Source: Spirulina sp.
Lineage (GTDB): Bacteria; Cyanobacteriota; Cyanobacteriia; Cyanobacteriales; Spirulinaceae
NCBI GenBank assembly: GCA_011390265.1
Contig: JAABSU010000005.1
Location: 1 to 37,355 of the forward strand
Length of the DNA: 37,355 nt
Direction: 5' to 3'
Part shown: positions 2,138-18,543 of the stretch, one piece after another
Numbering within the stretch: position 1 is the stretch's first letter
Layout: every line of letters starts with the position of its first letter
Program-made: the position numbers and the translations under genes
The notes under the pieces: generated by a model
What the model saw: the letters and a program-made list of their open reading frames with translations, nothing else
Database searches by the model: none
Told to the model about the DNA's origin: nothing

Positions 2138-2213
2138 GGTAGTGGGTGGGTTGTGTCAAAATGGAAAAAACGGGCCGGGATCAATCCCTGCCGCCACCGG
2201 AATCCATCAACCT

Positions 2214-2570
2214 ATGCTGTTAAAATCGACAACCCGCCATATTCGCATCTTTACCGCCGAAGTTAAAGATAACGAACTGATCCCCAGTGAGACAGTTTTA
2301 GCCCTAGATATTGATCCCGATAAAGAATTTAACTGGACGGAAGAGGCCCGCCAACAGGTACACCATCGCTTTGATGAACTCGTAGAAGCCTACAATGGTG
2401 AAGATTTAACAGAATATAACCTGCGGCGCATCGGCTCGGATCTGGAGCATTTTATCCGTGACCTGCTCCAACAGGGGCAGATCAGCTACAACATCCAAGG
2501 GCGTGTGCTGAACTACAGCATGGGCCTGCCCCGGATGGATACGGAACAGGGCAGAGGCCAATACTACTAG
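2214..2570 (+). CDS. ndhM: NAD(P)H-quinone oxidoreductase subunit M
   Basis: NdhM is a hydrophilic subunit specific to the cyanobacterial/chloroplast NDH-1 complex. It sits at the membrane-peripheral arm that takes electrons from ferredoxin for respiration and cyclic electron flow. The 118-residue product starts [17 protein letters not shown] and contains the highly conserved [20 protein letters not shown] block (positions ~66-85), followed by the [11 protein letters not shown] segment; I recognise both as NdhM. The ATG at 2214 gives the conserved MLLKST start. An upstream in-frame start at 2142 would add 24 residues with no family resemblance. The gene is a stand-alone ndh gene between the thioredoxin gene and the PP2C gene. 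Confidence 0.95.
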
Positions 2571-2626: not shown

Positions 2627-4798
2627 ATGGAAGCCGCCACTGATTATCTTTACTGCGCGAATGGGGACTGTCAACAGCGGAATCCCGGCCATCATCGCTT
2701 TTGTCAGGCCTGTAATACCCCATTGGTGCGGCGGTATCTGTGGGTGATTGGGGATCCGCGTCAGGATCAGCAGCCCCCCGCCTTGACCGTGGGGACAAGG
2801 GTGGGGCGTATGGTTCCCCAGGAGGGCCAACGGTATGCTGTGATTACCCCTCGGTTGTTATTGGATCTCCACCCCTATTTTCCCCCTCAAATGCCTGGAG
2901 ATGATGGAGGAACTGGGGCGGATGGGCAAGGGGATGCGGATGGGTATGGCGGCGGTCAAATTCCTGATCATCTCCTGCCCTATCTCAAACTCATTCCCCA
3001 ACAACTCCATATTCCCCAACTCTACGGACAACTTTCCTTAGACTCCCATCCCGATCTCTGGCTATTGGAAGTGGGCAGTTTACCTGATCCGGTGGATCCC
3101 GTCGGAGACCATGTTTTACCCCGGCTGACCCAAGCTTGGAGTCAGGCCAATGCCCTGCGCCAGGCCACTTGGCTCTGGCAAGTGGCCCGGCTTTGGGAGC
3201 CATTGCTGGCCCAAGGTGTTGCCAGTAGTCTCCTGCAAGGGGAACTGTTGCAGGTGAATGGGCCGGTGCTGCGGTTGCGAGAACTGCAACGGGATGGAGA
3301 GCCGCCCACCTTGGCACAGTTGGGGCAAACCTGGGCCAGCTTTGACAAGGCTGCCGCACCTTGGCGGGAGTTTTTCCAAAGTTTGTGTCAGCAACTTCAA
3401 GGGGGGGGCATTGTCGATGGGGCGGGCTTGATTGCTTGCTTGGATGGGGCGATCGCCTCCCTGGCCAGTGCTCATCGATATAGCTATGGGGCGATCGCCC
3501 AAACCGATGCCGGCCCCACCCGGGATCACAACGAAGATGCTTGCTACCCGGATCACCCCAAACAATTTACCCAGGATGAACCCGATCCCCCCGCTGTGAT
3601 TGTCTGTGATGGCATCGGCGGCCATGCGGGGGGGGAAATTGCCTCCCAGATTGCCATTGGAACCATCCAACACCGCCTCCGGGAAGCCGTCACAACCGAG
3701 AGCAACCCCCCCACAGCCGCTATCCGTGCCGCCCTTGAGCAGGCCATTCTCGAAGCCAACGATAAAATCTGTCAACGCAACGACGCAGAAAGCCGCCAGG
3801 AGCGGGAACGGATGGGCACAACGGTGGTAACGGCTGTGGCTCAGGGTTCCTCCCTTTACCTGGGTTATGTGGGAGATTCCCGCATTTACTGGATTACCCG
3901 CAGCGGTTGCTATCAACTCAGCCTCGATGATGATGTGGCAGCGCGGGAAGTGCGTCTGGGCTATGCCTTTTATCGGGATGCGGTATCTTTTCCCGGCGGC
4001 GGCGCGTTAATTCAGGCTTTAGGGATGGGGCCAGCCAATCGCCTCTATCCCAACTTAGATCGCCTCATTCTCGATGAAGATAGTCTCATTCTGCTCTGCT
4101 CCGATGGTTTGAGCGATTACGATCGCCTCGAACAATATTGGCAGACGGAACTATTGACCGTGTTGCAAGGAGAACAGGATCTAGCAACGGCGGTGGAGCG
4201 GTTAGTGGCGATCGCCAACCAAAAAAATGGCCACGATAACGTCACCGTCGGCCTCCTCCATTGCCAAGTCCAACCCCACCCCAGCCCCACCCTCCCCCCC
4301 TTAAACCCCACTGCCCACCCCCCACTTCCCACTTCCCACTCCCCACTCCCCACTCCCCGCACCTGGCCGGTCGCCGCCCTCACCACCGGCATCGTTGCCC
4401 TGCTGCTGATTTCCCTAGGGATCGTCTCCTATTCCCTCTTTCCCGAATGGAAGCAATGGGTCGATCGCCTCACCGGCAATACCCCCGTCACCGCCGTGGG
4501 AGATCCCATCCCCTTAAGTCAATTAAACCTAGGGAACATCGCTCAAACTGTGCGGGTGGTGGAGCTGCCCCTCGAACCCGCTGACGATGCTGAACTGGTT
4601 TCCCTATCCCCCCAAACCGCCTTTATCCTCACCCAGCGACAAATGCCCACCAATAATGGTGAAGTCTGGCTCCAACTGCAACTCTGTAGCCCGACGGTGA
4701 ATCAACCGCCAATTGTCTGGGTACGGCGTAATCTCGCCCCCAACCTCGAAGTCTTACCCCTAGCCACCCCTCCCCATTGCCCCCACCAAACCCGTTAG
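2627..4798 (+). CDS. Membrane-anchored PP2C Ser/Thr phosphatase with N-terminal zinc ribbon
   Basis: 723 residues. It should remove phosphate from Ser/Thr residues using two metal ions. Order: (1) a four-cysteine ribbon, Cys10-x4-Cys15-x10-Cys26-x2-Cys29; (2) residues ~40-280 with no motif I can name, perhaps a degenerate kinase-like region; (3) a complete PP2C domain ~283-546 with TDAGPTRDHNEDA, CDGIGGHAGGE, GTTVVTA, GYVGDSR, CSDGLSD and GHDNVTV, so the metal-binding aspartates are present; (4) a Pro/Ser/His linker ~552-578, partly translated from an STRR tract; (5) one transmembrane helix ~580-604; (6) a C-terminal segment of about 115 residues. The CHAT-FHA gene starts 19 bases downstream, so the two probably form an operon. 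The ribbon spacing is identical to that of the kinase at 36330. Its substrate is unknown. Confidence 0.93.
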   Translation: MEAATDYLYCANGDCQQRNPGHHRFCQACNTPLVRRYLWVIGDPRQDQQPPALTVGTRVGRMVPQEGQRYAVITPRLLLDLHPYFPPQMPGDDGGTGADGQGDADGYGGGQIPDHLLPYLKLIPQQLHIPQLYGQLSLDSHPDLWLLEVGSLPDPVDPVGDHVLPRLTQAWSQANALRQATWLWQVARLWEPLLAQGVASSLLQGELLQVNGPVLRLRELQRDGEPPTLAQLGQTWASFDKAAAPWREFFQSLCQQLQGGGIVDGAGLIACLDGAIASLASAHRYSYGAIAQTDAGPTRDHNEDACYPDHPKQFTQDEPDPPAVIVCDGIGGHAGGEIASQIAIGTIQHRLREAVTTESNPPTAAIRAALEQAILEANDKICQRNDAESRQERERMGTTVVTAVAQGSSLYLGYVGDSRIYWITRSGCYQLSLDDDVAAREVRLGYAFYRDAVSFPGGGALIQALGMGPANRLYPNLDRLILDEDSLILLCSDGLSDYDRLEQYWQTELLTVLQGEQDLATAVERLVAIANQKNGHDNVTVGLLHCQVQPHPSPTLPPLNPTAHPPLPTSHSPLPTPRTWPVAALTTGIVALLLISLGIVSYSLFPEWKQWVDRLTGNTPVTAVGDPIPLSQLNLGNIAQTVRVVELPLEPADDAELVSLSPQTAFILTQRQMPTNNGEVWLQLQLCSPTVNQPPIVWVRRNLAPNLEVLPLATPPHCPHQTR
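4321..4362 (+). repeat. Heptanucleotide STRR tract inside the PP2C gene
   Basis: Six head-to-tail 7-base units: CCCACTT twice, CCCACTC three times, then CCCGCAC. The 42 bases equal 14 codons, so the frame is kept. The translated tract forms the Pro-rich linker before the transmembrane helix. A change of one unit would shift the frame. Confidence 0.9.
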
Positions 4799-4817
4799 AT
4801 TGAATCCCCAACGAACT

Positions 4818-6422
4818 ATGCAGCACAGTGATTCTTTGGATTTAAGCTTAGCCCTCGTTCGTCTCGACTCTGCTGGCCCTGAACATTTTGCCATTTGGGT
4901 GATTAAAGCGCCTTTTCCAGGGGGATATGTTCACCATGATGATAAATGGTCGGTGGATTTGACTCAATGCTGGGTGGCTTGGCAGGAGATGTTTACCCTG
5001 GGGCAGCGATCGCCCCATTTGCCGGTACTCCATGCCCGGTTTAATATTCAGCAACCCTTTAAGCCCAGCGTCGAAGGTGGGGGCGCAACCCAAAGCTATG
5101 GGGGGCGGTTGATGCAGGAGTTAGGGGTGCAGTTGTGGCGCTGGTTGTTGCAGGGGCCGGTACGGAGTACCTTTGCCCACAGTTGCGGCATGGCCCAGGG
5201 GCGCAAGACGTTCCTGCGCTTGCGTCTCGATATTCGCGATCCCAATTTAATTCCCCTGCCTTGGGAGGTGATGCAACCGGCGGCGGGGAAACCGGCGATC
5301 GCCCTCAACCAAGATATTCTCTTCAGCCGCACCACCAATGATGTGGATCCCCTCAGTCCAGTGCAAACGGAGGAGGAGCTACGGATTTTATTGGTTTTGG
5401 GGCAGCCCAGTCACCCCCAAGGGGATGAATTGCAATTGCAACAGGAGGCGGAGTTGTTGCAGCAGGTGATTAATCCCACGTTCCGGGGGGAGGAGGGGGT
5501 GGAGGATGGTGCGCCCGTCAAAATTGATGTGTTGGTGCAACCCACGCCAGTACAGTTAATTCGCAGTTTAGAGGGGGGCTGCTACAATATTTTTTTCTAT
5601 GCGGGCCATGGGATGCCGGCCCCCGATGGGGGATTGTTGTTTCTCCATCCCCAGGCGAGTTTGAATGGCACGGAACTAGCCCAGGTGTTGGTGCGCACCC
5701 GTGTCACCTTGGCGTTATTTAATGCCTGTTGGGGGGCCTATCCGGAACAGCAGGGACAAACCGCTGTGCCCCGCAGTAGTTTGGCCGAAGTGTTGATTCA
5801 CCATGGCGTGCCAGCGGTGGTGGGGATGCGGGATGCGATCGCTGATCAGGAGGCCTTAACTTTTATCCAACATTTCACCATGGCGTTAACCCAGCATTGC
5901 ACGCTGGATCAGGCAATGGCGATCGCCCGTCAACAACTGCTGACGTTGTACAAATTCAATCAACCGGCTTGGACGTTGCCAATTTTGTACATGCACCCGG
6001 ATTTCAACGGGCAACTGCTGCGGCTGCGGCGGGAAATTACCGAGTTGCCGACGATTTTGCCGGAGGGCGGGGGCCGGCCGGTGATGCCTTTGGGGGTGAT
6101 GCGGATGGTAAAGGCCCGTGATCAAACCTGGTCGATTCGCGGCGGCTCGATGCGGGTGGGCCGTCGTCCTGATAATGATTTGGTGATCCAAGAGCAAGCG
6201 GTGAGCCAACAGCATGGCGAAATTTTCTACCGGGATACCGCCACAGAATCCCATGGCAGCCATTATTTTCTCCGGGATGCCTCTCGATTTGGCACCTATG
6301 TGATGAACCGACGCAATAATTGGCAATTGATTCACCACCAAGAAATCCGCTTGGTGTCGGGAATGCGCCTCAAGTTTGGCAGCAGTCAGGGGGAGGAGTG
6401 GGAATTTTTGATTACGGATTAA
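4818..6422 (+). CDS. CHAT-domain protease-like protein with C-terminal FHA domain
   Basis: 534 residues. CHAT domains are caspase-like (clan CD) cysteine peptidases. Here the domain spans about 180-400, with the catalytic His264 in FFYAGHG and Cys304 in ALFNACWGA, so the dyad is intact. The preceding ~180 residues have a conserved look (LRLDIRDPNLIPLPWEVM) typical of the region ahead of CHAT in cyanobacterial proteins. Residues ~440-534 are a forkhead-associated domain with MRVGRRPDNDL, the SQQH core and RFGTYV; FHA domains bind phosphothreonine peptides. ATG 4818 is used; a TTG at 4800 could add six residues. The gene lies 19 bases after the PP2C gene, suggesting a protease recruited or controlled by Thr phosphorylation that the phosphatase reverses (inference). 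Its stop overlaps the convergent neighbour's stop in a shared TTAA. Confidence 0.9.
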   Translation: MQHSDSLDLSLALVRLDSAGPEHFAIWVIKAPFPGGYVHHDDKWSVDLTQCWVAWQEMFTLGQRSPHLPVLHARFNIQQPFKPSVEGGGATQSYGGRLMQELGVQLWRWLLQGPVRSTFAHSCGMAQGRKTFLRLRLDIRDPNLIPLPWEVMQPAAGKPAIALNQDILFSRTTNDVDPLSPVQTEEELRILLVLGQPSHPQGDELQLQQEAELLQQVINPTFRGEEGVEDGAPVKIDVLVQPTPVQLIRSLEGGCYNIFFYAGHGMPAPDGGLLFLHPQASLNGTELAQVLVRTRVTLALFNACWGAYPEQQGQTAVPRSSLAEVLIHHGVPAVVGMRDAIADQEALTFIQHFTMALTQHCTLDQAMAIARQQLLTLYKFNQPAWTLPILYMHPDFNGQLLRLRREITELPTILPEGGGRPVMPLGVMRMVKARDQTWSIRGGSMRVGRRPDNDLVIQEQAVSQQHGEIFYRDTATESHGSHYFLRDASRFGTYVMNRRNNWQLIHHQEIRLVSGMRLKFGSSQGEEWEFLITD

Positions 6423-6988
6423 CCCCTTGGGGGTTCAGGGTTGGGGGCGGGGCCGCCGCAATAGGTTTGGACGTTTCCCACGCTTTCGTTAAGAGCGGAC
6501 TGGGCTTTTTCCAACTCGACGGAAAATTGATCAATTTCGGTGGCTAGCTGATCCAACTTGATCCGGCCTTCGGCGTTGAGTTCCAATTCACTGACTTCGC
6601 GTAAAACGCCACCGGCCCATTGAGGGAGATCTCGATGGCGACTGCCTTGGGTGATGACTTCCGTTTGCAGCGTTTTTAACTCGGAATCCCGCAGGCTGAG
6701 GTCGGCGATCGCTTCCAGATCCGTGGTGAGGCTGGTGGCGATCGCCTCAAAGGCCTCGGACATTTGGGCAGCCACAAATTTAAAGTCGTCAAAGGTGGCG
6801 GCTTCCTCAAAGGCTTCGGCGGTTTGCATTTCCTGATCGAGGCGATCTTGGGTTTGCTGGAGGTTGCCGATCGCCCCCATGAGGCGATCGCACTGCGCCA
6901 CCTTACTTTCGCCGCAGGCGGTTAAGCTCCCGGCGATCAAGAGGGTAGAGAGTAGAAGTGTGAGGGGATGTTGACGGCGATCGCCCAT
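6419..6988 (-). CDS. Predicted lipoprotein of unknown function
   Basis: 189 residues. The N-terminus MGDRRQHPLTLLLSTLLI followed by AGSLTAC is a signal peptide with a lipobox (LTA|C), so the mature protein should be lipid-anchored at Cys25 outside the cytoplasm. The rest is acidic and helical, rich in Glu, Gln, Leu and Ala with heptad-like spacing (MQTAEAFEEAATFDDF, ELEKAQSALNESV), consistent with a coiled-coil or helical bundle. Start chosen so that the signal peptide is N-terminal; a longer start at 7030 adds residues translated from an STRR tract. I do not recognise the family. It is convergent with the CHAT-FHA gene and shares the bases TTAA at 6419-6422, each gene using TAA. Confidence 0.75.
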   Translation of the reverse strand: MGDRRQHPLTLLLSTLLIAGSLTACGESKVAQCDRLMGAIGNLQQTQDRLDQEMQTAEAFEEAATFDDFKFVAAQMSEAFEAIATSLTTDLEAIADLSLRDSELKTLQTEVITQGSRHRDLPQWAGGVLREVSELELNAEGRIKLDQLATEIDQFSVELEKAQSALNESVGNVQTYCGGPAPNPEPPRG

Positions 6989-6999
6989 AAGGATCAAGG

Positions 7000-7026
7000 G
7001 GGAAGTGGGAAGTGGGAAGTGGGAAG
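7000..7026 (-). repeat. Heptanucleotide STRR tract upstream of the lipoprotein gene
   Basis: Three and a half units of GGGAAGT on the + strand (ACTTCCC on the - strand), the same unit class as in the PP2C gene. It lies immediately upstream of the lipoprotein start, within its probable leader. Confidence 0.8.
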
Positions 7027-7078
7027 CCATCCTTTGGCATAAGCTATCTTAAAGTGAGAACCCTACGCCCTGCTCCCA

Positions 7079-12061: not shown

Positions 12062-14104
12062 CTAACGATAACCATCGAGCCAATAGGTGGGCATTTCTCC
12101 CTTGCCTTTAATGGGAATTACGCCCCTGGGCGTGAGGCAGTAGGCCCCCTTGAGGCGGTGGTAGGTGTCGGGGGTGACTTGAATGCGGCCCGGTAGGCCT
12201 TGGGATTCCATGCGGCTGGCCATGTTCACCGTATCGCCCCACAGATCATAGCTAAATTTACTCGTACCAATGACACCGGCAACGACAGAGCCGGTATTGA
12301 TGCCAATGCGCAGGGCAAAGGGTTCGGCGCGGTCGTAGTTAAGGTGGTGGATCACCTGCTGCATTTCGAGGGCTAAGTTGGCGATCGCCTCCGCATGATC
12401 TTTTCGAGGCGTGGGCAATCCCCCCACCACCATATAGGCATCGCCAATGGTTTTAATTTTTTCCAAACCATACTGGGCGGTGAGGGCATCAAACTGGGAA
12501 AAAATCACATTTAATTGCTCCACGATAGCAATGGGGGGAAGGTTGGCCGCCAGTTGGGTAAACCCGACCAAATCCGCAAACAACACCGTTACTTCTTCAA
12601 AACTATCGGCGATCGTCGTCGTATCCACCTTGAGCCGTTCGGCGATCGGCTGGGGCAAAATATTCAGTAATAATTCTTCAGTTTTAACCTGTTCCTCCTG
12701 AAGAGCCACCTCTGCTTCCTTGCGCTTCATAAATTGCCCCAACTGGTTGCCCGTCGCCGCCAACATTTGCAACAAATTCTGATCCGGTGGCAACTGCTCC
12801 CGACGGAAAAACGTCATCACCCCCAACATTTCCCGCCCACTTTGGAGGGGAAAGCCTAAAGCCGTGCAGAGGTTAGCCTGACGGGCGAAGCAGTGGGGGC
12901 CAAAGTCGGGATCATGGTGAATCGTCGTGATCCATTCCGGCAGACCCGCCCCCCAGACCCGCCCCGCAAACCCCACCCCTTCGGGAAAAGTAATCTGCTC
13001 CGTGGCTTGTAAAAAATCATAAAAAGCCGTTGAAGGGCTGGACTGCACCCAAAAATCCACCCGTTGCAACTGAGGCACGGGCAGCGGGCAGGGTTCCCCT
13101 GAGCGTTGCCAGATCATGTCATCGGGTTGGGGGAGGGCAGGTTTCCGCTCGGCGGTGGTGGAGGGCAGCCACAGTTCCCCCAAATCCCAATCGAGGTTTT
13201 CGCCAATGGCCTTGAGGATTTGGTGGGTGGCGGTTTCGAGGGCGGTGGCTTCGGAGAGGATGCGGGCGATCGCATACTGGGCCGCTAACCGTTGCTGCGT
13301 GCGCTGCCGTTCCGTCACATCCCGGCCAATATAAACAATATCGGGAATCAGGTGGTGATCATTCTCCCCTTGGGCTTCGGTATGAATTAACGAACAGGAA
13401 AAAGCCACCGTTAACTTCACGCCGCTTTGATGCTGACAGACCACCTCTAAATTGCGCGACAGTTCCCCGTGATTTTGAATGCTATCGTATAACTCCTTAA
13501 ATAGGGGTTCAGCATCGAGAATTAACAGCGATAGGGATTGGCCAATTAACTCCTCCTGACGATAGCCAAACAGTTTTTCGGTGGCTTCATTGACGGTTTT
13601 AATAATTTGGTGGGGGGTGGTGACAATTAGGGCATCGGCAATGGCGGTGACGATGCGGTCAATGTATTGTTTTGAGGCCGTCAGGGCATTAAGTAACAGG
13701 TTGGCTTCATTGGTACTTTGCACCAATACCTGTTCAAGACGCATTTTTTCCGTGACATCTTCAATAAACAAAATCAAGGTGGTGGGCTGTATTGCCTCTT
13801 CCGTCGGTGGAGCTGCTTGCAGATGGAGATCAAGATAAAAATTTGCCCCGTTGGCGGTGGTGCGGGTCATGCCATTGAGGGTAAACAGGGGTAACGTCCC
13901 GGCTAGAATATCGCTAAAAATTTCCTCACAGCCGAAAAGTTCGGGAAAATGCTCACGGATATCACTATCCCGGAGGGGCATATCGGGATCTAGCCAAGTG
14001 CCAAAGGCAACGGGGGGGGAATGGTCGAGAATTTGCCATTGGCCATCCAGCACCACATAAGAGATATGGGGTGGCACAATTAAGGTTTGAGCAAAGGCAT
14101 TCAT
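12062..14104 (-). CDS. PAS-GAF class III adenylate cyclase
   Basis: 680 residues, no obvious transmembrane segment. Residues ~1-130 are a PAS-like or unassigned sensor region; ~145-265 is a PAS domain (AIADALIVTTPHQIIKTVNE, EKLFGYRQEELIG); ~280-440 is a GAF-like domain; ~460-485 is a short signalling helix (EEQVKTEELLLNILPQPIA). Residues ~502-680 are a class III nucleotidyl cyclase. The metal aspartates are Asp511 (LFADLVGF) and Asp555 (TIGDAYM). Lys549 and Asp620 (SYDLWGD) match the adenine-specifying residues of adenylate cyclases, and Asn627/Arg631 match the transition-state pair. It should therefore make cAMP and be catalytically intact. It starts 21 bases after the GTPase gene, same strand. 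Confidence 0.92.
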   Translation of the reverse strand: MNAFAQTLIVPPHISYVVLDGQWQILDHSPPVAFGTWLDPDMPLRDSDIREHFPELFGCEEIFSDILAGTLPLFTLNGMTRTTANGANFYLDLHLQAAPPTEEAIQPTTLILFIEDVTEKMRLEQVLVQSTNEANLLLNALTASKQYIDRIVTAIADALIVTTPHQIIKTVNEATEKLFGYRQEELIGQSLSLLILDAEPLFKELYDSIQNHGELSRNLEVVCQHQSGVKLTVAFSCSLIHTEAQGENDHHLIPDIVYIGRDVTERQRTQQRLAAQYAIARILSEATALETATHQILKAIGENLDWDLGELWLPSTTAERKPALPQPDDMIWQRSGEPCPLPVPQLQRVDFWVQSSPSTAFYDFLQATEQITFPEGVGFAGRVWGAGLPEWITTIHHDPDFGPHCFARQANLCTALGFPLQSGREMLGVMTFFRREQLPPDQNLLQMLAATGNQLGQFMKRKEAEVALQEEQVKTEELLLNILPQPIAERLKVDTTTIADSFEEVTVLFADLVGFTQLAANLPPIAIVEQLNVIFSQFDALTAQYGLEKIKTIGDAYMVVGGLPTPRKDHAEAIANLALEMQQVIHHLNYDRAEPFALRIGINTGSVVAGVIGTSKFSYDLWGDTVNMASRMESQGLPGRIQVTPDTYHRLKGAYCLTPRGVIPIKGKGEMPTYWLDGYR

Positions 14105-14125
14105 GGCAAAAAAGACCGTGATAAT

Positions 14126-14659
14126 TTAGGGGTCTGTGAGCATGACCGTGGCTAAGGATTCAAAAATGGTTTGCACCGCCTCGCCGGTTTTAGCCGAAGT
14201 GCTGTAGGTGGCAATCACTTGGCGGTGTTGCTGCTCGAAGGTGCAACGGGCGATTAAGTCGGCCTGTTGATCGGGAGGCAGTAGATCAATTTTATTGAGG
14301 GCGACAATCACCCAACCCTTAGCATTAATCTTAAAAAACAAATCGAGATGATCCTGAACATGGGTGATGGTCTCTTTGCGCTTGACATCCGCGACAATGA
14401 TGGCACCCTTGGCTCCCTGAAGATAGCTGGGGGCGATCGCCTTAAATTGGGTTTGCCCCTCAATGTCCCAGATCAACAATTCAACTTCTTTGCTGATCTG
14501 GGCATCGGTGGCTAATGTCGTCACCCGTTTGCGCGACAGTTTAACGCCAACGGTGGAGAGGTATTCATCACTAAACTGACCATCCACAAAACGACGAATT
14601 AAGCTGGTTTTGCCAACACTAAAATCACCGACAAGACAAATTTTTTTCGCGATCGCCAT
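14126..14659 (-). CDS. Ras-like small GTPase
   Basis: 177 residues with all G-box motifs of a Ras/Rab-superfamily GTPase: G1 GDFSVGKTS (11-19), switch I threonine near Thr36 (STVGV), G3 WDIEGQ with Gln69 in the place of the Ras catalytic glutamine, G4 NKID (122-125) and G5 SAK (155-157). There is no C-terminal lipidation motif, so membrane location would need a partner. It lies 5 bases after the large OmpA-like gene and 21 bases before the adenylate cyclase gene, all on the same strand. The OmpA-like protein carries a predicted longin/roadblock-like domain, the type of fold that commonly binds or regulates such GTPases (inference). Target process unknown. Confidence 0.93.
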   Translation of the reverse strand: MAIAKKICLVGDFSVGKTSLIRRFVDGQFSDEYLSTVGVKLSRKRVTTLATDAQISKEVELLIWDIEGQTQFKAIAPSYLQGAKGAIIVADVKRKETITHVQDHLDLFFKINAKGWVIVALNKIDLLPPDQQADLIARCTFEQQHRQVIATYSTSAKTGEAVQTIFESLATVMLTDP

Positions 14660-14664
14660 GTTTT

Positions 14665-17600
14665 TTAAGATTCTTCCGGTGAAACCAATTCAAACCGCAC
14701 ACAACGACTCAACCAGGCCGCTTCATTATCCGTGACACCCGGGGGACGTTCAACTGTGCCCACCACTTCCATGCGATTAACATCGATGCCTTGAGCGGCG
14801 ATCGCCTCTTTAACCACGTCAGCCCGCCGTAAAGAGAGATCCTGATTCTGCTCCATGGGGCCACTGGCATCTACATAGCCAGTAATCCGAACCTCAATAT
14901 CGGGATTATCCCGCAAAAACTGACTAATGGGAATAATTTTATCCATTTGCTCCGTCGCATTGAGTTCAGCGGAATCTCGCTCAAAGTAAATTCGCCGCGC
15001 TAAAGCTTGGGGGAGTAAATCCTGCTCAATCAGATTTTCAATCCCCGGCAGGGTTTTGAAGGCTTGGATAATCTCCTCATAATCCTCCGTCGTGCGATAG
15101 CTACCGGTCAAGATCACCCGCTCCGGACTGTAGGAGGCCCGAATATCCACCCCCGGATTCCGGTTCAGCAACCCCGTCACCAATTGAATCATCCCCGCCA
15201 CCGCCGCCGGATCTGGGGGAGTTGTCACCACATGAATTTGATTATCCAGGGTTTTGCCCGGCGCTAAACCCTGGGCAATGGTGCTGGCTTCATCTTTAAA
15301 CCGTTCAGCGGGAACCCGGCCTTCTAAACGCACGCGCCCCCCCTCCACTGCTGAGGTCAGGGGACTATAGGCGATGTCATCCAACTCTGTGGTTAACGCC
15401 GCCGCAATACGGGTGGAGAGTCGCTGATCAAAAAAGCCCCGCACCTGGAAATAGAGCCAAGGCATAAAGATCAACAGTGCCACAACCCCCACTAAAAACA
15501 GCAGGGTTTTGGGGGATTTTTCGGGTCGGGTGGTGACGGCAGATTCCCCCAGCCGCTCCAGTAACACGGTGATCGCCGTCGGAACCGTCTCTGAATCCCC
15601 CTCGAAGCCTTCAATTAACGCGCCATAGTTTTGAATGATCTGGCCAAGGGTGCGGCGGATATTTTTCAACAAACCCGCGTTAGCACTACCCTTCACCACC
15701 ACGGCCAGATAGCAATAGCCCGCCACCTCCAGAATAATCCGGGCATCCCCGTATTCAACTTCACTCAACTCCGAAATCGTCCCACTTTGGGCAATGCAGT
15801 CATTGACAAAACTGCGGATCGCCGTTAGCATCCCCGCCACCATATTCGACTCTAGGGGGTTTTGCTCGCGGTTGGGCTGAATTTCGGCAATCACCAAGCC
15901 AGAGGTTTTCTGAATCAGGAAAATTGCCTGCACCGTTACGGGCATCGACTCTTGCAAAATTAGCTCTGCTTCTGTGACTCCCTGCATCCGAGCACGGACT
16001 TTCCGGGTTAAACCATCGACACTAAAGGCGGTTTCCACCTTGGTGTTAATCGTATTAATGGCTTCCCCGATGTAGCGGTTGACCGTGCCGCCAATCACCG
16101 GATAAAGGGCATCAACCATCGAATCCCGTTCCAGTTCAATTTGGTTTTTAATCGCCCGGCCAATGGTGGGGCCAAGGGATTTGGCGATCGCATCCCGCTC
16201 CACCAACATCTGCTCCTGCATCGCCGCCGCCACCTCTGGGCCGATGGCTTTGGCAATCCGTTGGGGATGCTTTTGAATTTCCTGCTCAATGGCCAGGGGG
16301 ACGAGATCAGCAATGGCCATGGCCATCCCTGGCCGATTATCCCTGGCCCGCTCTGTAATCATCTCCTCAAGAATCGGCGTAGCCATAGCCCGCACCATAT
16401 CCTGAGATGTGCCCACCTTCATCTTCAGCAACTGCACCATCAACGGCACTAAAGGATTAATCACCTCCGTCGGCTCATAAATCTGTTGCTCTAAGGTCTG
16501 TACTTTAGTGATTAATTGCTGCAAAATCTCCGGCTCAGTGCCATTGAGATCTAGCTCTGTTGGGGGTTTTGAAGGGGAAGGCAGGGTGGTGAGCAATTGG
16601 GCCAGTAAGGCCCGCTCCGCATCGGAGGCCGTCTGATCCACCGCCGGAACTAATTCCGGTGCAGCGGCTTCTAGCTCTGAGAAAGCAGTGGTTTGGGGTG
16701 GGGGGGATTCTGCCACAGTTATCGGCTCTACTACATCAACAGGGGGTGGTTCGGGGGATAGGGTCGGGGGGTGATCTTCGAGTGTAGTAGCTTCTTGTTC
16801 CGGTATAGGTTCCGGTGTAACTTCCTGCGTGGGTTCCGGTGCAGGTTCCGGCGTAGGTTCCGGTGTAACTTCCGGTGTGGGTTCCGGCGTAGGTTCTAGG
16901 GTGGATTCTGGCGTGGATTCTGGCGTAAGTTCCGGCGTAGGCTCTGGGGTGGGTTCTGGCCCCAGACCCAAGGACTTAAATAAATCCTCAGGCTCAAACG
17001 GCATCACATCAGCCTCTGGGGATGGCGCTGTGCTCGGAGTAGTGGCTTTGGGTTTGGGTCGATCTAACAAAAAATCCCGTAGCTCCCGCAGAGGGTCATC
17101 CCGTTCGAGGACAGGACGACGGAATAAATCCGCCAAGGCTGGATCATTCTTCGATGTAGCCTTGGCCTCCTCTGGGCTGGTGGGTTTGGGGCGACGGGGG
17201 GGGGGTGGCGGCGGTGTTTTGCGAATGACGGCCCGCTTTCGGGTGGGGGCAGGGGGGGAAATTTCGGGCTGAATCATCGCGGCAAACTCATTGAGAGCCG
17301 CTTCCACATCAGACTCAAATTGATTGCGGCTGGGGCTTGTCTCCGTCGGTTCTGGCGTTGCCACCGGCTCCGGCGAGGCTAGTTCTAAATCATCAAGGGC
17401 GATCGTTGCCTCTGGTGCTTCCACCGGGGGCAATTCAGAGAAATCTATGGTGTTGAAATCCTGAGTATTCACATTTTCCGTACTGAAATCTTGGGTACTG
17501 AAATCCTGAGCACCCAAATCCTCAGGATCGAGATCTTGGGCCGTGAAATCTTGGGCCATGAAATCTTGAGCCGTGAGATATTGAGAATTGGCGATCGCCT

Positions 17601-18510
17601 CCCGCTCCGGAGGAGTCACAACTTTCGGCTCCGGCAGAGACGGCTCAGGCTCCGGTGCTGGCATAGGTGTCGAATCTGCCAACTCAGCCACTAGATCAGA
17701 GGCAGGGTTAGATCGCGTCATCATTCCCTCTGGCAGTTCAAGGGACTCTAAATCTAGGTCTAGATCTACATCTGGCAGCGGTTCAGCGGTGGAGGTCTGG
17801 GTTAGATCTAACTGGAGTGGGGCGTTGAAATCCTCCAAGCCCAACATGGCCCGCAAATCGATAGATAGTTCTGGGGCGGGGGCCGATGGCGCAGCAGGGG
17901 GAACGGGAGAAGCCGCCGCGCTAGGCTCAGGACGACGTTCAGGTTGCGGCAGTTCTGGTTCAAATCCCTCCAATTCTGGAGTGGGTTCCTGGGGTTGGTC
18001 AAGACTATCAACAAAGAAATCCATAATATCCCTAGACTCCCCTCGCTCCTCAAGTTCAGGCGGGTTCAAGGTTGGGGAGGGGGTGGATTCCGGTGATTTG
18101 CCGTTGGTTCCGTGGCGATTGTTGCCGTTGCTGTTGCCGTTGCCCTCAAAACCCGGACTGGGGGCGGAGTGGGGCGTAATCGGTTCAAACTTGCTGATTC
18201 GCTGGGTGAGGGTGGCGGCGGCATTGTCGTCAATGGTTTCGAGATCATCGGGATCACGGCCGAGCGATCGCGAATCGTGATGGGTCAACAGTTCATCCAG
18301 ATCAATCAGTAACCCTTTAAAGAGATCTTGAGTTTCTTGATCAGACTCCGGTTCTGGTGGTGGGGGAGTCGGAAAATCGAGGGATTCATCGGAGGGTAAG
18401 GATTCATCGGCTGTATGGTTGCTGAGGGCATTTTCCCCATCCCAGGGATCGGGAAGGGGAGAAAAGGGTTCAGTTGAGCGATCAGAATCGGGATGTTTTG
18501 AGGAACTCAT
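14665..18510 (-). CDS. Large OmpA/BON membrane protein with longin/roadblock-like domain and long disordered N-terminus
   Basis: 1281 residues. About 1-640 is acidic, Pro/Glu-rich and probably disordered. It includes nine tandem five-residue units (AQDFM AQDFT AQDLD ...) at ~308-355 and a TPEPTPE tract near 515-570. About 650-858 is helical, with ALYPVIGGTVNRYIGEAINT near its end. About 859-970 (TVQAIFLIQKTSGLVIAEIQ, ESNMVAGMLTAIRSFVNDC) looks like a longin/roadblock-type alpha-beta domain. One transmembrane helix lies at ~1002-1022, BON-like segments at ~1035-1160, and an OmpA C-terminal peptidoglycan-binding domain at 1165-1281 with GYVDASG and QDLSLRRADVV, keeping the Asp and Arg that bind diaminopimelate. 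The topology fits a cytoplasmic N-terminus and a periplasmic OmpA domain. ATG 18510 (MSSSKHPD) is preferred; a start at 18534 adds eight residues. First gene of the run with the GTPase and cyclase. Confidence 0.85.
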   Translation of the reverse strand: MSSSKHPDSDRSTEPFSPLPDPWDGENALSNHTADESLPSDESLDFPTPPPPEPESDQETQDLFKGLLIDLDELLTHHDSRSLGRDPDDLETIDDNAAATLTQRISKFEPITPHSAPSPGFEGNGNSNGNNRHGTNGKSPESTPSPTLNPPELEERGESRDIMDFFVDSLDQPQEPTPELEGFEPELPQPERRPEPSAAASPVPPAAPSAPAPELSIDLRAMLGLEDFNAPLQLDLTQTSTAEPLPDVDLDLDLESLELPEGMMTRSNPASDLVAELADSTPMPAPEPEPSLPEPKVVTPPEREAIANSQYLTAQDFMAQDFTAQDLDPEDLGAQDFSTQDFSTENVNTQDFNTIDFSELPPVEAPEATIALDDLELASPEPVATPEPTETSPSRNQFESDVEAALNEFAAMIQPEISPPAPTRKRAVIRKTPPPPPPRRPKPTSPEEAKATSKNDPALADLFRRPVLERDDPLRELRDFLLDRPKPKATTPSTAPSPEADVMPFEPEDLFKSLGLGPEPTPEPTPELTPESTPESTLEPTPEPTPEVTPEPTPEPAPEPTQEVTPEPIPEQEATTLEDHPPTLSPEPPPVDVVEPITVAESPPPQTTAFSELEAAAPELVPAVDQTASDAERALLAQLLTTLPSPSKPPTELDLNGTEPEILQQLITKVQTLEQQIYEPTEVINPLVPLMVQLLKMKVGTSQDMVRAMATPILEEMITERARDNRPGMAMAIADLVPLAIEQEIQKHPQRIAKAIGPEVAAAMQEQMLVERDAIAKSLGPTIGRAIKNQIELERDSMVDALYPVIGGTVNRYIGEAINTINTKVETAFSVDGLTRKVRARMQGVTEAELILQESMPVTVQAIFLIQKTSGLVIAEIQPNREQNPLESNMVAGMLTAIRSFVNDCIAQSGTISELSEVEYGDARIILEVAGYCYLAVVVKGSANAGLLKNIRRTLGQIIQNYGALIEGFEGDSETVPTAITVLLERLGESAVTTRPEKSPKTLLFLVGVVALLIFMPWLYFQVRGFFDQRLSTRIAAALTTELDDIAYSPLTSAVEGGRVRLEGRVPAERFKDEASTIAQGLAPGKTLDNQIHVVTTPPDPAAVAGMIQLVTGLLNRNPGVDIRASYSPERVILTGSYRTTEDYEEIIQAFKTLPGIENLIEQDLLPQALARRIYFERDSAELNATEQMDKIIPISQFLRDNPDIEVRITGYVDASGPMEQNQDLSLRRADVVKEAIAAQGIDVNRMEVVGTVERPPGVTDNEAAWLSRCVRFELVSPEES

Positions 18511-18543
18511 ACACCACCATGGGTACAGCAACAATAATCACGG

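Follow-up and report, generated by a model that had tools for sequence, protein, structure and literature searches.

Among bacterial caspase-like proteases, those with a known developmental target are rare, and HetF-PatU3 is one such case. HetF is a cell-division and differentiation factor (classified as a cell division protein in NCBIfam NF045509) and has been reported to cleave PatU3 (reviewed in PMC12288457). The present analysis concerns a sister of HetF, encoded within a 37,355-nucleotide stretch of DNA from Spirulina sp. (contig JAABSU010000005.1, positions 1 to 37,355; hereafter the window), in which a CHAT protease domain is fused to an FHA domain (CHAT-FHA; Table 1). Together with a partner family, c1, this protein has roughly even chances of constituting another protease-substrate pair of the HetF/PatU type, where the FHA domain would replace the membrane/TPR part of HetF and Thr phosphorylation would serve for recruitment or switching. 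The new point is this HetF/PatU-like pair. A search of the open literature turned up no account of CHAT-FHA proteins in cyanobacteria.

Table 1. Features of the CHAT-FHA locus in the window (nucleotide positions; CHAT-FHA residues numbered from TTG 4800)
Feature	Positions	Strand	Evidence or remark
ndhM, conserved upstream anchor of the locus	2142-2570	+	Pfam NdhM, 176.5 bits
PP2C-type Ser/Thr phosphatase, 723 aa	2627-4798	+	Pfam PP2C_2, 2.2e-15
PP2C catalytic domain, residues 291-551	3497-4279	+	phmmer match to cyanobacterial phosphatase 2j82, E 1.5e-21
CHAT-FHA protein	4800-6422	+	start TTG 4800 or ATG 4818
CHAT protease domain, HetF-like	5115-5954	+	Pfam CHAT, 3e-20
CHAT dyad codon, His270	5607-5609	+	
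CHAT dyad codon, Cys310	5727-5729	+	
Thr414, linker motif [I/V]-T-[E/R]-L-P	6039-6041	+	candidate phospho-site in a low-confidence (disordered) stretch
FHA domain	6153-6380	+	Pfam FHA, 4.8e-13
FHA codon, Arg455	6162-6164	+	
FHA codon, Ser469	6204-6206	+	
FHA codon, His472	6213-6215	+	

An initial annotation had described a PP2C phosphatase with intact metal motifs, followed after 19 bases by a CHAT protein carrying an FHA domain. This arrangement was borne out, with both genes intact and ATG 4818 of CHAT-FHA lying 19 bases past the TAG stop codon of the PP2C. The CHAT-FHA protein comprises 540 aa and lacks a hydrophobic helix. Membership in the CHAT family follows from a Pfam match (PF12770) of 73.3 bits against a cut-off of 24, together with the His/Cys dyad. 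The catalytic residues, previously numbered His264/Cys304 from ATG 4818 and here His270/Cys310 from the in-frame TTG 4800, are each at least 97% conserved, with no exceptions found among 111 orthologues. In the predicted structure (mean pLDDT 84), the protease part folds like Craspase TPR-CHAT and separase (Z about 20-21), and the FHA part like EmbR, OdhI and GarA (Z 14-15).

The FHA domain scores 49.8 bits against a Pfam cut-off of 20.7 (PF00498) and contains the main phosphothreonine-binding Arg and Ser. The Gly-Arg and Ser-x-x-His core proposed in the annotation is mostly kept across the 111 orthologues: Gly454 and His472 occur in all of them and Ser469 in 110, but Arg455 is found in 105 and is replaced by Ser in the other six. 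Asp493, Ser495 and Gly498 are each present in 111/111 and Thr499 in 108/111, while the usual Asn of the 'NGT' motif is mostly Tyr or Phe. These residues make it plausible that the domain is a phosphothreonine reader, as predicted. Between the CHAT and FHA domains lies a variable, poorly predicted linker in which Thr414 is nevertheless invariant (111/111) and Pro417 nearly so (109/111), marking Thr414 as a candidate self-ligand of the FHA domain that would have to be phosphorylated. OdhI and GarA, to which the FHA fold is close, are self-binding FHA proteins. By analogy, an intramolecular switch may be considered as a special, non-exclusive form of the pair reading, in which phosphorylated Thr414 would bind its own FHA domain and lock or unlock the protease, with PP2C opposing this effect. 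Such a switch is possible, if somewhat unlikely, as the invariance of Thr414 may instead be structural or reflect a CHAT-binding motif.

A scan of species genomes recovered 246 loci homologous to CHAT-FHA, far beyond chance, and among the best 80 of these 246 loci the family is restricted to cyanobacteria. It occurs in 69 of 291 well-completed cyanobacterial genomes, with one copy per genome. The nearest paralogue is HetF, which is a separate gene in the source genome (82.9% complete). Among named relatives, the closest is a Spirulina MAG, at 93% identity. In a CHAT-domain tree, HetF and CHAT-FHA group together against 12 other CHAT proteins of that genome with an SH-aLRT support of 100, the tree having been built by a quick method and containing long branches and one short CHAT fragment whose placement is uncertain. 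The NCBIfam HetF model (NF045509) covers only the CHAT part of CHAT-FHA, at 179.7 bits against a cut-off of 1200, and the C terminus is an FHA domain in place of the membrane helix and TPR C-terminal half characteristic of HetF. CHAT-FHA forms a separate cyanobacterial family, sister to HetF. The source genome holds 21 CHAT-domain matches altogether, several of them inside very long proteins (1000-1700 aa frames).

CHAT proteases also act in the Craspase and SAVED-CHAT defence systems, and the similar fold is in keeping with the suggestion, made in the annotation, of a possible regulated-death or defence module with a protease reset by PP2C. In a module of this kind, whether for death or against phage, the phosphorylated protease would cut cellular proteins. 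This suggestion did not hold up and is now highly improbable. PADLOC gave no match for CHAT-FHA and chance-level matches only for PP2C, the gene context in the window is one of housekeeping rather than defence, and CHAT-FHA is a single-copy gene whose chromosomal position next to ndhM is conserved across many families; moreover, it tracks a PatU-like protein and its closest relative is HetF. A search for a neighbouring kinase, which the annotation had recommended, found none among the window proteins scanned. A possible cluster for signalling or polarity occupies positions 12065-18534 of the window, where the minus strand encodes, side by side, a PAS-adenylate/guanylate cyclase, a Ras/Roc-like small GTPase (14129-14659) and a 1289-aa OmpA/BON protein.

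The partner c1 is a helical protein of about 205 aa with the motifs YPWNP and W...DL.V.ARP.A.AMR. It accompanies CHAT-FHA at 54 of the 72 testable loci, lying immediately downstream at 50 of them, and a frequent gene order is ndhM, PP2C, CHAT-FHA, c1. In the source genome, c1 is unlinked to CHAT-FHA (G000:C293:10084-10605). The place that c1 takes in other genomes is occupied in the window by a 203-aa ORF with a predicted lipoprotein-like product (6419-7030, minus strand), directly after CHAT-FHA on the opposite strand and with no family match above cut-off. No Pfam or NCBIfam family matches c1; a search of PDB sequences returned nothing beyond a designed helical bundle and some lesser hits, all attributed to chance, and comparison of its modelled fold gave no convincing match, which does not make the fold new. 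In 23 loci, a fusion of FHA with a PrsW intramembrane protease is convergent to c1 (e.g., L007:11883-13277). This fusion was dropped as a module member because its distribution does not follow CHAT-FHA/c1: G040 and G119 contain it but have neither CHAT-FHA nor c1, and it is missing from G000, G004, G018, G021 and G131, all of which have both.

When searched with a deep c1 profile, four genomes each gave one weak second match, to the same stretch, and every time the matching gene directly followed a HetZ-like gene. In one genome the family model confirmed that neighbour as HetZ (648 bits against a cut-off of 550), and in a second the match was strong and the gene truncated; because of its position, the downstream gene was taken to be PatU. 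Direct comparison of the c1 and PatU profiles gave an hhalign E-value of 5e-7 (probability 92%), with a score of 51.5, a value that 200 column shuffles did not approach (maximum 22.8), and the motif [F/Y]PW[E/N] is common to both. These comparisons show that c1 is a remote homologue of PatU (PatU3). Two points count against the pair reading: the homology spans about 105 columns, with 13% identity, and the C-terminal region of PatU has no counterpart in c1 (about 205 aa against 320-415 aa). PatU follows hetZ, whereas c1 sits by CHAT-FHA or alone. In Nostoc-type genomes (G046, G158, G271 and others, all of one family), patU often carries one to three stop codons, as expected from the patU5/patU3 split known from Anabaena.

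The presence of CHAT-FHA and c1 is concordant in 287 of 291 cyanobacterial genomes (phi 0.963, 4 discordant). HetF and PatU, which serve as a positive control because they form a known protease-substrate pair, are concordant in 289 (phi 0.98, 2 discordant), compared with 277 for the crossed protease-partner pairs (phi 0.864-0.867, 14 discordant each); these phi values are based on raw genome counts, kinship being addressed by within-genus contrasts alone. Some genomes contain only the CHAT-FHA/c1 pair (e.g., G131, G140 and G173) and others only HetF/PatU (e.g., G084, G091 and G165). Within genus g37, CHAT-FHA and c1 are both present in G239 and both missing from G040 and G119, and within genus g65 both are present in G173 and missing from G177 and G212. 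In G055, CHAT-FHA has lost residues 305-489, including the catalytic Cys, and c1 is reduced to a scrap, while in G029 PP2C and c1 are both retained and nothing more than an FHA-like scrap separates them. Orphan c1 proteins retain a mean of 11.0 of the 14 invariant residues, compared with 13.1 (p 0.019; one deeply truncated copy left out), and because this comparison covers five genomes, the tendency of c1 to lose invariant residues where the protease is gone is suggestive only. The orphan c1 of G009 keeps every key residue, which counts against the pair reading.

Gene adjacency and co-occurrence of this kind fit any obligate partner, and instead of being a substrate, c1 might serve as activator, inhibitor or adaptor. 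Separase, a fold relative of CHAT-FHA, has securin, and c1 might likewise be dedicated to inhibiting or activating the CHAT protease, in the manner of a securin or a pro-peptide, with the true substrate elsewhere. This role is unlikely, as the sole detectable relative of c1 is PatU, the reported cleaved substrate of the sister protease.

The PP2C matches Pfam PP2C_2 at 57.2 bits (cut-off 24) and contains the metal-binding Asp motifs NEDA302, DGIGGH328, DGLSD493 and DNVTV537; NCBIfam PRK14559 reaches 260 bits against a cut-off of 374. Its N terminus carries a degenerate 4-Cys/zinc-ribbon motif, below cut-off, and a hydrophobic helix lies at residues 582-600, near the C terminus. Linkage with CHAT-FHA is conserved to some extent, PP2C being the gene directly upstream in 35 of the 65 loci whose sequence extends far enough; however, PP2C is present in all 59 genomes examined and adjoins ndhM also in genomes without CHAT-FHA. 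Adjacency alone is therefore weak evidence of a dedicated function, and PP2C was rejected as a specific partner of CHAT-FHA; both its universality and its absence from the adjacent position in about half of the loci count against the proposed mechanism. The annotation had envisaged a phospho-controlled protease reset by the phosphatase. Given the conserved dyad, the FHA residues and the PP2C linkage in about half of the loci, phospho-control is plausible, but the phosphatase is not specific to it.

For the HetF/PatU-like pair, we infer the following sequence of events. CHAT-FHA would act as a soluble caspase/separase-like cysteine protease with the FHA domain as its regulatory part. A Hanks-type kinase would phosphorylate a Thr on c1, on a scaffold, or at linker position 414, and binding of the FHA domain to this phospho-Thr would recruit the substrate or open or close the protease. 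The partner c1, dedicated to CHAT-FHA, very probably as its substrate, and presumed to be a restraint on cell division or differentiation as PatU3 is, would then be cut and the restraint lifted. Removal of the phosphate could fall to the adjacent PP2C, a phosphatase general to cyanobacteria. Several observations count against the phosphorylation part: the Arg-to-Ser change in six FHA domains, the mostly absent NGT Asn, and c1 itself, across whose family an invariant Thr was looked for and none found. A wider scenario, which is tentative and falls a little short of an even chance, is that HetF-PatU and CHAT-FHA-c1 are two parallel pairs derived from one ancestral pair, the second being gated by Thr phosphorylation through the FHA domain and linker Thr414 and tying signalling by Hanks-type kinases to the control of cell division or differentiation by proteolysis. 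If true, protease-target pairs diversify, with the sister protease combining a PatU-like partner of its own with a domain that reads phosphothreonine; the FHA-CHAT fusion would gain a concrete target, and Ser/Thr kinases would be linked to regulated proteolysis in bacteria. The c1 family, unnamed so far, hereby receives its first functional hypothesis.

Several known systems share parts with this locus. Stp1/tPphA-type PP2C phosphatases have the catalytic domain and metal motifs in common with the PP2C of the window, which, unlike them, possesses an extra N-terminal 4-Cys region, a middle region and the C-terminal hydrophobic helix. OdhI, GarA and EmbR share the FHA fold and the main phosphothreonine residues with CHAT-FHA, but none of them has a protease domain. 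Craspase TPR-CHAT (Csx29) and separase share the protease fold, whereas CHAT-FHA is accompanied by no Cas proteins and has an FHA domain in place of TPR. HetF/PatU3 combines a sister CHAT domain, the same Cys motif (FN-A/S-C), a partner from the same remote family as c1 and an equally tight co-occurrence of protease and partner; HetF differs in having membrane and TPR segments and no FHA domain, and PatU in lying beside hetZ and being longer than c1.
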